NCBI RefSeq assembly: GCF_003353065.1
Contig: NZ_CP027806.1
Location: 1,325,001 to 1,389,000, forward strand
Reading direction: 5' to 3'
DNA length: 64,000 bases
Source: Cyclonatronum proteinivorum
Lineage (GTDB): Bacteria; Bacteroidota; Rhodothermia; Balneolales; Cyclonatronaceae
Shown: piece after piece, positions 2,997 to 63,640 of the stretch
Layout: every line of letters starts with the position of its first letter
Position numbering within the stretch: position 1 is the first letter of the stretch
Made by a program: the position numbers and the translations under genes
The notes under the pieces: generated by a model
Seen by the model: the letters and a program-made list of their open reading frames with translations, nothing else
What the model was told of the DNA's origin: nothing
Database searches by the model: none

Positions 2997-3082
2997 CCCA
3001 AAAAGCAAGGGGTTCATCTTTGATTTGGGAAGTGAGTAAAACCACGAAAGACCGTGATGTTCACGGAGTTTCCCCCAAAAAA
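2997..3082 (+). repeat. Dispersed 85-90 bp intergenic repeat, copy 2
   Basis: Runs from CCCAAAAAGCAAGGGG through TCATCTTTGATTTGGG to the perfect hairpin CCGTGA-TGT-TCACGG and ends GAGTTTCCCCCAAA. Nearly identical to the copy at 32487-32570. Several copies abut a terminator, here the one at 3084. Confidence 0.8.
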
Positions 3083-3083
3083 T

Positions 3084-3126
3084 AAAAAAAGCCGGATTAC
3101 CAGCTCGTAAGCTTGAATCCGGCTTT
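3084..3126 (-). terminator. Terminator of the glycine-rich membrane protein gene
   Basis: AAAGCCGGATT (3088-3098) pairs with AATCCGGCTTT (3116-3126); on the minus strand the stem is followed by a T-run. It lies 31 bases past the stop of the gene at 3157. Confidence 0.85.
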
Positions 3127-32486: not shown

Positions 32487-32570
32487 TCCCAAAAAGCAAG
32501 GGACTCATCTTTGATTTGGGGTGCCTGTAAAACCACGAAAGACCGTGATGTTCACGGAGTTTCCCCCAAA
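32487..32570 (+). repeat. Dispersed 85-90 bp intergenic repeat, copy 4
   Basis: CCCAAAAAGCAAGGG, TCATCTTTGATTTGGG, the CCGTGA-TGT-TCACGG hairpin and GAGTTTCCCCCAAA occur in the same order and spacing as at 2997-3082. It lies in the 371-base gap between ftsZ and the convergent PAP2 gene. Confidence 0.8.
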
Positions 32571-32652
32571 TAAAAAAAACCTTGGAATGGCGATACATTC
32601 TGGTTTCGGGGAAAGGTGATGTCTGGCAAACGCGATCCAATCGGGTCGCGTA

Positions 32653-36559: not shown

Positions 36560-36669
36560 CACGCTGCGAACCGGAGCAGAAGGTAATCGTTCTGACAGGG
36601 CAAGTATCATCGTTTTATTTGCCAAAAATTGTCATCACCGGCTCAATCGGTGCATATCGCTTCCTCCAC

Positions 36670-36854
36670 CTCCCAAACCGCACCCAAACACCATTTCCCC
36701 CAAGCCTACCGTGAAATCCGGTTATGCCATGTGCATTTTTCATGGTAGATATTAAAAAGTACCGTGAAAATCGATTATGCCATGCGCGGATTTCACGGTA
36801 GGCTTGTAGGGTTTACCGTGAAAATCGATTATATTGTGAGCGATTTTCACGGTT
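36670..36854 (+). repeat. 41-bp palindromic repeats upstream of the ATPase gene (three units)
   Basis: Three 41-base units at 36707-36747, 36760-36800 and 36814-36854, each of the form ACCGTGAAA ... TTTCACGGT around a TTATG/TTATA core. Units 1 and 2 are 12 bases apart. Together with the preceding C-rich stretch from 36670, units 1-2 match 38092-38225 in direct orientation, on the other side of the ATPase gene. Confidence 0.85.
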
Positions 36855-36898
36855 AGCGACCTTTCCGGTAAGCTTCAACATTCAGGACGGAACCACAA

Positions 36899-38074
36899 AT
36901 GGATATATCTTTATACACCCGCACCAAACAGGCCAAGCTCGAGGATCTGATGATTGATTACCCCGCGGTCGCAATTGTTGGGGCACGTCAGGTTGGTAAG
37001 ACAACATTGGCGAGACAAATTGCGGCTTCACGGCAAAAAGAAGCACTCTATCTTGATATGGAGTCACCCCGGGATGTTTCCAAACTTCAGGAAGCAGAGC
37101 TCTTTTTTGAGCTGCATGCGGATAAGCTGATCATTATCGATGAAATTCAGCATAAACCGGAGCTTTTTGGCGTACTTCGGTCCGTGATTGACAGCGATCA
37201 GCGAGGGGGTAGATTTCTGATTTTAGGTTCAGCATCTCCGGTGCTGATTCGAAAAACGATGGAGTCACTGGCGGGCCGCATATCTTATCAGGAGCTGCAT
37301 CCTTTAAGCTTTATTGAGGTTGGCGGGCAGGATTTACTCAAGAAGCTGTGGTTTCGGGGAGGTTTCCCCAAGTCTTTTCTTGCCCGAAATGATGATGTTG
37401 CTATGCAATGGCACAGGGATTTTCTGATTACGTTTGTAGAGCGCGATTTGTCCGTTTTGGGTCTCAACACGGACTACACCAAACTCCGTGAGTTTCTCAT
37501 TCTTCTTGCGCAGCAACAGGGTTCACACCTAAATCAGGAAACGCTCGGGCGCTCGCTCGGTGTGAGCCGCTCAACCATTAACCGCTACATTCACTACCTG
37601 ACGCACGCGTACATTATTCGTTTGCTGCGGCCCTGGTCCACCAATGTTGGTAAGCGCATGGTGAAAGCACCGAAGGTGTACATCCGGGATAGCGGTTATT
37701 TTCACTCCCTGCTCGATATTGACAGTTATGATGACCTTCAGGTGAATATCGCGGTTGGAGGCTCGTGGGAAGGCTTTGTGGTAGAGCAGACGATGGCGGT
37801 GCTGCCGACAAGCTGCAAGCTTTATTTTTCACGAACCCATCACGGGGCAGAGGCAGATTTAGTGCTGGTAAAACATGGTAAGCCGATTGCCTGTGCCGAT
37901 GCCAAGCGGAGTCAGGCCCCGAAACTGGAGAAGGGGTTTCTCAATGTGATTGAGGACAACGATACCTCCCGAAACTTCATGATTATTCCCGCTGATGAAG
38001 ACTATCCGGTACACCGGAAGGTTCAGGTAACCGGACTTCAGCAATGGCTGGATTTTGTGCAGGCGCAGGAGTGA
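36899..38074 (+). CDS. AAA-family ATPase with DUF4143 domain
   Basis: A 391-residue cytosolic ATPase. Walker A GARQVGKTT is at 28-36 and Walker B LIIIDE at 77-82; SASPVLIRK and the arginine-containing LAGRISYQELHPLSF follow. The C-terminal DUF4143 region includes DSGYFHSLL and GGSWEGFVVEQ, then an HHGAEADLVL...KPIACADAK stretch that resembles a degenerate PD-(D/E)XK nuclease core. Length is normal for the family. Function of these abundant, often multi-copy ATPases is unknown. The gene lies between direct repeats made of 41-bp palindromes and next to a cassette cluster, which suggests it moved in with them. Confidence 0.88.
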   Translation: MDISLYTRTKQAKLEDLMIDYPAVAIVGARQVGKTTLARQIAASRQKEALYLDMESPRDVSKLQEAELFFELHADKLIIIDEIQHKPELFGVLRSVIDSDQRGGRFLILGSASPVLIRKTMESLAGRISYQELHPLSFIEVGGQDLLKKLWFRGGFPKSFLARNDDVAMQWHRDFLITFVERDLSVLGLNTDYTKLREFLILLAQQQGSHLNQETLGRSLGVSRSTINRYIHYLTHAYIIRLLRPWSTNVGKRMVKAPKVYIRDSGYFHSLLDIDSYDDLQVNIAVGGSWEGFVVEQTMAVLPTSCKLYFSRTHHGAEADLVLVKHGKPIACADAKRSQAPKLEKGFLNVIEDNDTSRNFMIIPADEDYPVHRKVQVTGLQQWLDFVQAQE

Positions 38075-38091
38075 GATGAGAAACGCTCGCC

Positions 38092-38225
38092 CCCCCCAAA
38101 ACCCCACCCAAACACCCTTTTCCCCAAACCAACCGTGAAATCCGGTTATGTCGTGTGCGATTTTCACGGTAGATTTTAAAAAGTACCGTGAAAATCGATT
38201 ATATCATGCGCGGATTTCACGGTAG
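38092..38225 (+). repeat. 41-bp palindromic repeats downstream of the ATPase gene (two units)
   Basis: Units at 38131-38171 and 38184-38224, again 12 bases apart and with the same order as upstream units 1-2. The C-rich lead-in CACCCAAACACC is also shared, so the whole 130-base block is a direct duplication flanking the ATPase gene. Confidence 0.85.
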
Positions 38226-38982: not shown

Positions 38983-39472
38983 GGGATGTAAGTCAGGTTA
39001 AGGGTTGGGCTGCATAATAGGTGGTTTGATCGCAAAATGCACCGCTTAGGATTCGATTCTTTTGGAGAGGGGGGACAGACCGCGGACCGCTGACCGCAGG
39101 GGTGCCGTTAAGGTATCTTTCCCTGTTGCGCGGAAATTTTACCTTGGTTCATTAGATCAAGTAGTTCGGTATTGGTACAAAACCCAAAAAGCAAGGGATT
39201 AATCTCCGGTTTGGGGGCTTTTGATCTTTCAGGGAGCCCCTGATGTTCACGGAGTTTTCCCTAAAAAAACAGAGCTATTTTCAGCTTGTGGCTGGTAGCA
39301 GGGGGAAATGGCGGGGTAAGCGGTTTCCGGTGGGGGTCTTGCTGAGCGTGTGATAGGGGCGGGTAAGGCGGATTTGAAAAGTGGTGAAAGGCGGCGGCTT
39401 CATTTTATTGTGAGCCGCTTTTTTTATAGCTTACAGAATTATAACCATACTGTTCACCAATTGGGAAGCTTC
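38983..39472. other. Intergenic region with a dispersed repeat
   Basis: No gene recognised except the doubtful N-terminal extension of the DUF432 gene. It holds dispersed repeat copy 5 and a short GGACCGCTGACCGC segment (39075) that recurs near 61036. Confidence 0.5.
39183..39268 (+). repeat. Dispersed 85-90 bp intergenic repeat, copy 5
   Basis: CCCAAAAAGCAAGGG start, GGTTTGGGGGCTT centre, CCTGATGTTCACGGAGTTTT end. Its centre is closest to copy 3. Confidence 0.7.
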
Positions 39473-55949: not shown

Positions 55950-56520
55950 GTTACCTGCGGCGCGCTGGCGCGCCGGGGACGGGTTCGTGACGCGATTCCG
56001 GGGTGGCTGACGCGTGTGGGGGCGGGCACATAGGCACCGCCCCTACGTTCGTGTTCGCCGGATATATCGCGGCGCGCTGGCGCGCCGGTTTCTTCGCGGT
56101 AATTTGGAGCCAAAAAAACCAAACCCATTGGCCGACCCCGAAAATCCATACCACATCAGGGCCTCCCAATTCCCCTCTCGAGAGGGGTGGCCCCGGGATT
56201 AAGCTATTCAACGGCAATGGGTTATAAATGCACCAAATTCAAAAAGGCCACGGTGGTGGCGGGACGGGGTGTGGAAATGTTGTTGCAGCCCACGAAACCC
56301 TGATAACGGACATGGAGGCCTGCGTTTGTTTTCGGTTCCGGTTTTATTTCGACTCGCGGATATGGGCGGCTGACGCACGCGGGGCGAGCACAAGGCGTCG
56401 CCCCTACCGCACACGGGGCGGGCACGTAGGCGCCGCCCCTACCATCGGGTTCGCCGATATATCGCGGCGCGCGCAAGGCGCGCCGCATGCGAGGCCCACC
56501 ATACCGCGCAACCCCATCAA
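55950..56520. repeat. GC-rich palindrome array, distant copy
   Basis: Contains the same blocks as 61600-63640: GGCGCGC-GGCGCGCC palindromes, CCCCTCTCGAGAGGGG, a CCACGGTGGTGGCGGGACGG segment and GGGGCGAGCACAAGGCGTCG hairpins. Confidence 0.8.
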
Positions 56521-61559: not shown

Positions 61560-63640
61560 GCGCTTACAATGCGCACTTACGCGTGGTTCGGCATGGAAAT
61601 TTGGGCAACTGACGCGTATGGGGCGAGCACAAGGCGTCGCCCCTACGGTGCGCGGGGGCACTGGTTCTTTGCGGCGCGCGCAGGGCGCGCCGGGTTCTTC
61701 GCTGTAATTTGGAACCGAAAATCAATACCAAATTCAATCGCCGACCACGAAATTTTATTCAACCACCGATCTCCCCAATTCCCCTCTCGAGAGGGGTGGC
61801 CCCGGAACTAAACCATTCAACGGCAATGGGTTATAAATGCGCCAAAATTAAAAAAAGCCACGGTGGTGGCGGGACGGGGTGTGACGCGGGCGTTCGATTC
61901 ATCACCAAAATCCGATCAGGTTCAAAATCTTTGATAAACCCACAGACCAACAGGCATCGGTGTCGGAATCAAGGTCGTCGCTCTACGCAGTGTGCAGCCA
62001 CACACGAGTCGGCAGGTATATTTGGGTGGCTGACGCGTATGGGGCGAGCACAAGGCGTCGCCCCTACAGTGCGCGGGGGCACTGGTTCTTCGCGGCGCGC
62101 GCAGGGCGCGCCGGGTTCGGTTTCGTGACGCAATTCCGTGGCGGCTGCCGCACGCGGGGCGGGCACGTAGGCGTCGCCCCTACCGTCGGGTTCGCCGATA
62201 TATCACGGCGCGCGGGCGCGCCGGGTTCTTCGCGATAATTTGATTGCGAAAATCAACACCAAATTTAATCGCCGACCACGAAATTTCATTCCACCTCAGG
62301 GCCTCCCAATTCCCCTCTCGAGAGGGGTGGCCCCGGTACTAAACCATTCAACGGCAATTGGGTATAAATGCACCAAAATGCAAAAAGGCCACGGTGTTGG
62401 CGGGACGGGGTGTGGAAATGTTGTTGCAGGCCTCGAAACCCTGATAACGGCTATGGCGGCCTGCCTTCGGTTTCAATTTCGGATTCGGGAATGTGGAGGC
62501 GGGATCGAAATGCCGAAATGGCTTGCGCACACGGGGGCGAGCACAAGGTGTCGCCCCTACCGCACGCGGGGCGGGCACGTAGGCGCCGCCCCTACGTGCG
62601 GGTTCGACGATATATCGCGGCGCGCGGGCGCGCCGGTTTGTTCGCGATAATTTAAATCCGCAACGCCCCGTACCCTGAATTCAGGCGCTCCCCTCTCCTG
62701 AGCAAAAACCGCATGAGGGTTGCAAAAGCAGTTCAGGAGAGGGGCCGGGGGTGAGGTCCGGCAGGCGGCTGACGCGACCAGGATCTGCAGGGCTTCGTGA
62801 CGCAATTCCGAAATGGCTGCCGCACGCGGGGCGAGCACAAGGCGCCGCCCCTACCGTGCGCGGGGGCACTGGTTATTCGCGGCGCGCGCGGAGCGCGCCG
62901 GAGGCGGATTCGGGATTTGATTGCGAAAAACAAAACCACATTCAATCGCCGACCACGATATTTTTTACCACCTCAGGGCCTCCCAATTCCCCTCTCGAGA
63001 GGGGTGGCCCCGGGACTAAATTATTCAACGGCAATAGGTTATAAATGCGCCAAAATTAAAAAAAGCCACGGTGGTGGCAGGACGGGGTGTGGAAATGTTG
63101 TTGCAGGCCTCGAAACCCTGATAACGGCTATGGCGGCCTGCCTTCGGTTTCAATTTCGGATTCGGGAATGTGGAGGCGGGATCGAAATGCCGGGGTGGCT
63201 GACGCGTATGGGGCGAGCACAAGGCGTCGCCCCTACCCACACGGGGCGGGCACGTAGGCGCTGCCCCTACGTGCGGGTTCACCAATACATCGCGGCGCGT
63301 GGGCGCGCCGGTTTGTTCGCGATAATTTAAATCCGCAACGTCCCGTACCCTGGATTCAGGCGCTCCCCTCTCCTGAGCAAAAACCGCATGAGGCTTACAG
63401 GTCTTGTTCAGGAGAGGGGCCGGGGGTGAGGTCAGGCAGGCGGCTGACGCGACCAGGACCTGCTGGGCTTCGTGTCGCAATTCCGAAATGGCACACGCAC
63501 GCGGGGCGAGCACAAGGCGTCGCCCCTACCGCACGCGGGGCGGGCACGTAGGCGCCGCCCCTACGATGCGGGCTCGCCGATATATCGCGGCGCGCGGGCG
63601 CGTCGGGTGGGTTGCGCGATTTGCGGTTGTCGGGCATTTT
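61560..63640. repeat. GC-rich palindrome array with ~676-bp tandem repeat
   Basis: A 2-kb non-coding mosaic of palindromes: GGGGCGAG-n-CGCCCC hairpins, GGCGCGC-GGCGCGCC, CCCCTCTCGAGAGGGG and CCCCTCTCCTGA/TCAGGAGAGGGG. The segment from about 62228 to 62860 recurs at about 62905-63535 (the CCTCCCAATTCCCCTCTCGA anchors are 677 bases apart). A shorter related unit lies at 61700-61890. No frame is conserved between units. Confidence 0.85.

Follow-up and report, generated by a model that had tools for sequence, protein, structure and literature searches.

Five palindromes of about 40 bp (ACCGTGAAA...TTTCACGGT) surround a DUF4143/AAA_14 ATPase gene in the genome of Cyclonatronum proteinivorum, three of them upstream and two downstream, and the question raised by this locus is what such repeats do beside such a gene. 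The window referred to below is the whole stretch of DNA analyzed, 64 kb in length.

Palindromes and direct repeats at the locus

The palindromic unit measured 39 bp between its outer bases, with arms ACCGTGAAAATCG and CGATTTTCACGGT, and spacers of 14 to 15 bp between palindromes gave a period of 53 or 54 bp (Table 1). This fixed length and spacing agrees with an earlier model's reading of the letters alone (the sequence-only reading), in which the palindromes were taken to look like a recognition sequence. The motif ACCGTGAAA was found 10 times in the window, compared to 0.5 expected, and nine of these copies were at the ATPase locus. As the same reading had described, a palindrome block with a C-rich leader was present in the same direction on both sides of the gene; the repeated block was 136 bp long with 88% identity, and gapped alignment extended it slightly further upstream, through the leader. 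The third palindrome that had been placed upstream exists, but it follows the upstream block and precedes the gene.

Table 1. Features of the ATPase locus (positions within the window)
Feature	Position	Strand	Basis
Upstream block: C-rich leader and palindromes 1 and 2	36666..36801	+	repeat search, 88% identical to 38090-38225
Palindrome unit 1, right arm imperfect (one mismatch)	36707..36747		repeat search
Palindrome unit 2	36760..36800		repeat search
Palindrome unit 3, 13-bp perfect arms, -84 to -46 from ATG	36814..36854		repeat search
ATPase gene, AAA+ (AAA_14), winged helix-turn-helix and PD-(D/E)XK (DUF4143), 391 aa, PADLOC PDC-S01	36899..38074	+	domain profiles, AF2 model
Walker A, residues 28-36, GARQVGKTT	36980..37006	+	near-invariant in 87 homologs
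Helix-turn-helix, residues 208-238	37520..37612	+	HTH_11 match; model helices 213-220, 224-236
PD-(D/E)XK nuclease-like domain, residues 263-391 (E291, D320, D334, K336)	37685..38071	+	conservation, fold comparison
Downstream block: leader and palindromes 1' and 2', locus-specific duplication	38090..38225	+	repeat search, gapped alignment
Palindrome unit 1'	38131..38170		repeat search
Palindrome unit 2'	38184..38224		repeat search

Other repeats were also present in the window. A dispersed repeat of about 92 bp (CCCAAAAAGCAAGGG...CACGAAAGACCGTGATGTTCACGGAGTTTCCCCCAAA) had three window copies (32488-32579, 2997-3088, and 39183-39274), and most of the 43 matches in sister genome G005 mapped to it. 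Two further stretches, 56000-56510 and 61567-63616, contained GC-rich repeat families, dispersed or tandem, with as many as nine copies in the window.

Domain composition of the ATPase

In domain profile searches, the window protein matched DUF4143 (E = 2e-36, 99.8 bits, with a cut-off of 27) and AAA_14 (E = 1.5e-28, 125.6 bits, with a cut-off of 28.1). The PDC-S01 profile also matched it, with a best E value of 1.7e-82, and matched three paralogs as well. The AF2 model (pLDDT, 94.7) consisted of an AAA+ domain, a winged helix-turn-helix (HTH; helices 193-205, 213-220, and 224-236; strands 240-243 and 259-262), and a C-terminal nuclease-like domain. The C-terminal part had been called a decayed nuclease core, a description contradicted by the conservation of the PD-(D/E)XK residues in 87 homologs, where E291, E318, and K336 were invariant and D320 and E/D334 nearly so. 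Modeled alone, this domain had its best matches among PD-(D/E)XK enzymes and included McrC, AgeI, EcoT38I, VRR-NUC, and Card1, all with weak E values. The nearest solved folds for residues 1-273 were the archaeal ATPases PAB2304 (2qen; Z 16.8, rmsd 3.0, 249 residues) and SSO1545 (2fna; Z 16.5, rmsd 3.1, 252 residues), which have an AAA+ core and winged helix like those of the window ATPase but align with residues 1-273 only, at about 17% identity. Foldseek matches also included Cdc6/Orc1, and a PDB sequence search with the window protein gave no match.

Distribution and inheritance of the motif

No further copy of the window motif was found in its own 4.29-Mb genome. The exact motif was present in 4 of 41 relatives' genomes, always beside the orthologous ATPase gene, so that the co-occurrence of palindrome and ATPase expected from the sequence-only reading was seen for every exact copy. 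The motif of the paralog L007 was likewise confined, in the two genomes searched, to the roughly 500 bp that precede its gene; genome-wide searches were done for these two motifs, and neither was found elsewhere in the genomes tested. A further palindrome of the L007 private motif was located about 450 bp upstream of that gene (L007 445-472), apart from the array at the start codon. The window motif was also considered as a phage target and rejected, since it was absent from IMG/VR.

Array motifs were common to orthologs and different between paralogs, and they drifted along with the protein, from ACCGTGAAA at 72 to 74% protein identity to ACCATGAAA at about 60% and ACCC[TC]GAAA at about 50%. 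The site lies upstream of its own start codon and is specific to its gene, as an operator would be.

Arrays upstream of DUF4143 genes

The window's genome had 14 DUF4143 matches. Immediately ahead of the start codon, most of these genes carried a repeated palindrome or a short tandem repeat, and the array sequence was different for each paralog. Truncated DUF4143 copies were also present in this genome (L015 and L016), and two palindromes still preceded the L015 remnant.

Across a larger collection of 192 DUF4143 genes (93 in a discovery set, 85 in a separate set, and 14 named plasmid-borne genes), a palindrome or tandem repeat was found upstream of 108 genes (56%), compared to 12 of 175 neighboring genes (7%) (P = 4e-26, a value that overstates independence because genes in the sets are related). 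Arrays were counted when within about 200 bp of the predicted start codon, and at the thresholds used, 44% of the 192 genes had none. In the discovery set, upstream palindromes with a score of ≥10 were found for 60% of the 93 genes and 8.6% of neighbor genes, with the controls at 0% in gene bodies and 13% downstream, and the mean best upstream score was 11.1, compared to 6.2 in shuffles and 7.0 in neighbor genes. The separate 85 genes were picked by protein similarity alone, and most of them belonged to other classes and phyla (Pseudomonadota, Acidobacteria, Verrucomicrobia, and other Bacteroidota); upstream palindromes were found for 36% of them, compared to 4.6% of controls (P = 4e-10, subject to the same relatedness among genes). 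The collection was scanned with a subfamily alignment, as 11 diverse paralogs proved too divergent when aligned together. Palindromes downstream were not clearly enriched in the DUF4143 family (8 to 13%, compared to 5 to 9% in controls). The upstream array is a general feature, and the downstream copy is peculiar to the window locus.

Palindrome centers peaked 10 to 40 bp before the start codon, often with overlap of the codon itself. Array architecture was variable, and many DUF4143 genes had a single palindrome only. A Collinsella gene carried three repeat copies with a 33-bp period and an Agathobacter gene a repeat at 33 bp, both as direct repeats without strong palindromes; the Collinsella motif CATTTTCCGATGGAAAA resembled the CACTTTTTCGATGGAAAAA of a 47%-identical homolog (L008). 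The repeat of the single archaeal gene examined was below threshold. In G005, which has at least 14 DUF4143 copies, DUF4143 genes were found in tandem pairs with a distinct array for each (L091 and L092). Similar REP-like palindromes (GATGAAAA..CATGCTCA-type core around GGTAC) were found at L017 2032-2089 and 3' of the gene at L026. The DUF4143 copies that they follow are unrelated and come from different genera, and the palindromes are possibly a dispersed element of the family.

Helical phasing and stem mismatches

Array periods clustered at 22 to 23, 32 to 33, 53 to 54, 76, and 108 bp. In 21 protein groups formed at 45% linkage, 10.5 bp was the repeat length with the strongest phase concentration (R = 0.64; Rayleigh P = 2e-4), so that the repeated sites are helically phased, as operator sites would be. 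Mismatches within stems were G-T in 26 cases and A-C in 20, with no bias toward G-U. Periods of whole turns and the lack of G-U bias are together better explained by proteins lined up on one face of a DNA duplex than by an RNA hairpin. Coincidences of the arrays with the Bacteroidota -7 box numbered 5, no more than the 6.1 expected, and sigma-70 scans were uninformative.

Candidate binding protein

No neighbor family recurred at more than 3 of 80 loci searched for a partner gene. The ATPase is therefore the sole protein always coinherited with the array and the obvious candidate for binding it. Among divergent pairs, array similarity tracked the identity of the HTH (partial rho = 0.134, P = 0.008, a small correlation for one of several regions tested) but not that of the AAA+ domain or wing, and the nuclease domain showed a weaker trend (P = 0.034). 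The correlation is suggestive only of the ATPase's HTH as the putative reader of the array. A whole-protein Mantel test against the arrays gave a weak association, which was gone after close orthologs were removed.

History of the locus

The downstream block was absent from the other nine of ten clade members read, and the upstream flank was not conserved in sister genomes. In three sister species (G002 to G004), the ortholog was located beside clpB, and in the window's genome it is beside a LOG-family gene; gene and array have therefore moved together. We read the downstream block as an old duplicate of the array that has no gene attached. Either a tandem duplication in the past, after which one gene was lost, or a circle integrated at a block would explain the direct repeats. 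A remnant of a second DUF4143 gene was sought beside the downstream block and rejected, with no convincing match (best E = 0.005).

Proposed function and alternative explanations

The upstream array is probably, though with considerable room for doubt, a gene-private, self-recognizing operator of the ATPase gene behind it; we infer binding by the ATPase itself, cooperativity, repression, and an inducing signal. The winged HTH of the DUF4143 protein would read a half-site (ACCGTGAAAATCG at the window locus), and subunits would occupy alternating inverted half-sites, which would lie on one helix face because units repeat at whole turns (here, 53 bp is five turns). Cooperative assembly of the AAA+ domains along the array may then mask the start region, and the nuclease-ATPase gene would be kept repressed until its release by a nucleotide state or by a signal, for example phage infection. 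The HTH and the array are proposed to evolve together, so that each paralog, including the 14 in the window's genome, would have its own non-cross-reacting array.

Other explanations account for parts of these data. The array could be an initiator-type nucleation site, at which the AAA+ protein on a private, iteron-like array would load, melt, or cut DNA, in the manner of Orc1/Cdc6 or plasmid Rep proteins, and transcription control would not be primary. This is unlikely, even with an AAA+ and winged-HTH fold related to those of SSO1545 and PAB2304 and matched by Cdc6/Orc1, intact PD-(D/E)XK residues, and tandem sites that are helically phased and separated by AT-rich 14-bp spacers in the arrays of the window's clade, since DUF4143 genes are solitary and chromosomal, many have a single palindrome, and the arrays abut the ATG, where an operator would be placed. 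Linked replication or partition genes, as in an iteron replicon, were not found, nor was a recurrent neighbor family in the 80 loci. Quite improbable is a mobile unit, in which the ATPase would bind the repeats and move or spread the gene in the manner of REP/RAYT or of a transposon with end repeats. The sequence-only reading had proposed a unit of repeat plus ATPase, and the relocation of gene and array between sister species, together with the 136-bp direct repeats flanking the gene and the 14 paralogs in the genome, is compatible with it, but as stated it is not supported by the data. The window palindromes lack a dispersed distribution, since their own genome and 40 others together had 0 exact copies at a distance from the gene, and terminal repeats of the transposon type were not seen in independent copies, with the downstream repeat in 1 of 10 clade members and the family near background. 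No target-site duplication or empty site was seen, and the G005 contig ends at the site, about 10 bp beyond the LOG gene.

Regulation by unlinked host proteins would make the arrays an ordinary promoter feature unrelated to DNA binding by the ATPase, which is itself something we infer. Palindromic operators are common at ordinary genes, and about 7% of control genes passed the same threshold, but each gene of a genome has a different motif, the two searched genome-wide were found nowhere else, and motifs travel with the gene to new neighborhoods. One private unlinked regulator would be needed for each paralog, which makes this explanation very unlikely. Slighter still is the probability of an RNA role, in which the palindromes would form hairpins in the 5' leader and either sequester the start codon or serve as a protein-binding site: many overlap the ribosome-binding site or ATG, but the period is quantized to DNA turns, stem mismatches show no G-U excess, and the Collinsella and Agathobacter arrays lack strong palindromes. 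The array may also, with low probability, be a licensing or antidote site, which would hold the AAA+ nuclease assembled on it inactive or would mark self until array loss or host DNA damage in phage infection freed the active nuclease. If true, this would make the gene a solitary, one-gene defense system carrying its own DNA antitoxin.

Relation to known systems and implications

PDC-S01, an ATPase fused to PD-(D/E)XK, is the fourth most common defense across prokaryotes and is experimentally unvalidated (PMC12988326). The window protein passes both domain cut-offs and has the PD-(D/E)XK residues of this PADLOC phage defense candidate (COG1373; AAA_14 plus DUF4143), and no report of repeats or operators at PDC-S01 genes was found in the open-access literature, where DUF4143 itself came up in one paper.

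In Orc1/Cdc6 with origin recognition boxes and in plasmid Rep proteins with iterons, phased repeats likewise adjoin the gene for an AAA+ or winged-HTH protein. DUF4143 genes differ from these in the lack of a replicon context, the paralog-private motif, and the attached nuclease domain. The autoregulated control proteins of restriction-modification and toxin-antitoxin systems bind DNA at palindromic operators in their own promoters, whereas the putative binder here is the AAA+ nuclease itself, with 1 to 5 phased units at a solitary gene. As in RAYT/REP (REPtron), an enzyme gene is accompanied by palindromes that its product may recognize, but those of DUF4143 genes are not dispersed in the genome and no Y1 transposase is present.

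DUF4143/PDC-S01 genes are among the most numerous unvalidated "defense" genes in prokaryotes. Were every member to have its recognition site next to the gene, specificity would be readable from sequence, one oligonucleotide for each protein would suffice to test binding, and both sensing and the control of expression would become accessible. The arrays would then supply many natural pairs of protein and site from which winged-HTH specificity could be decoded.
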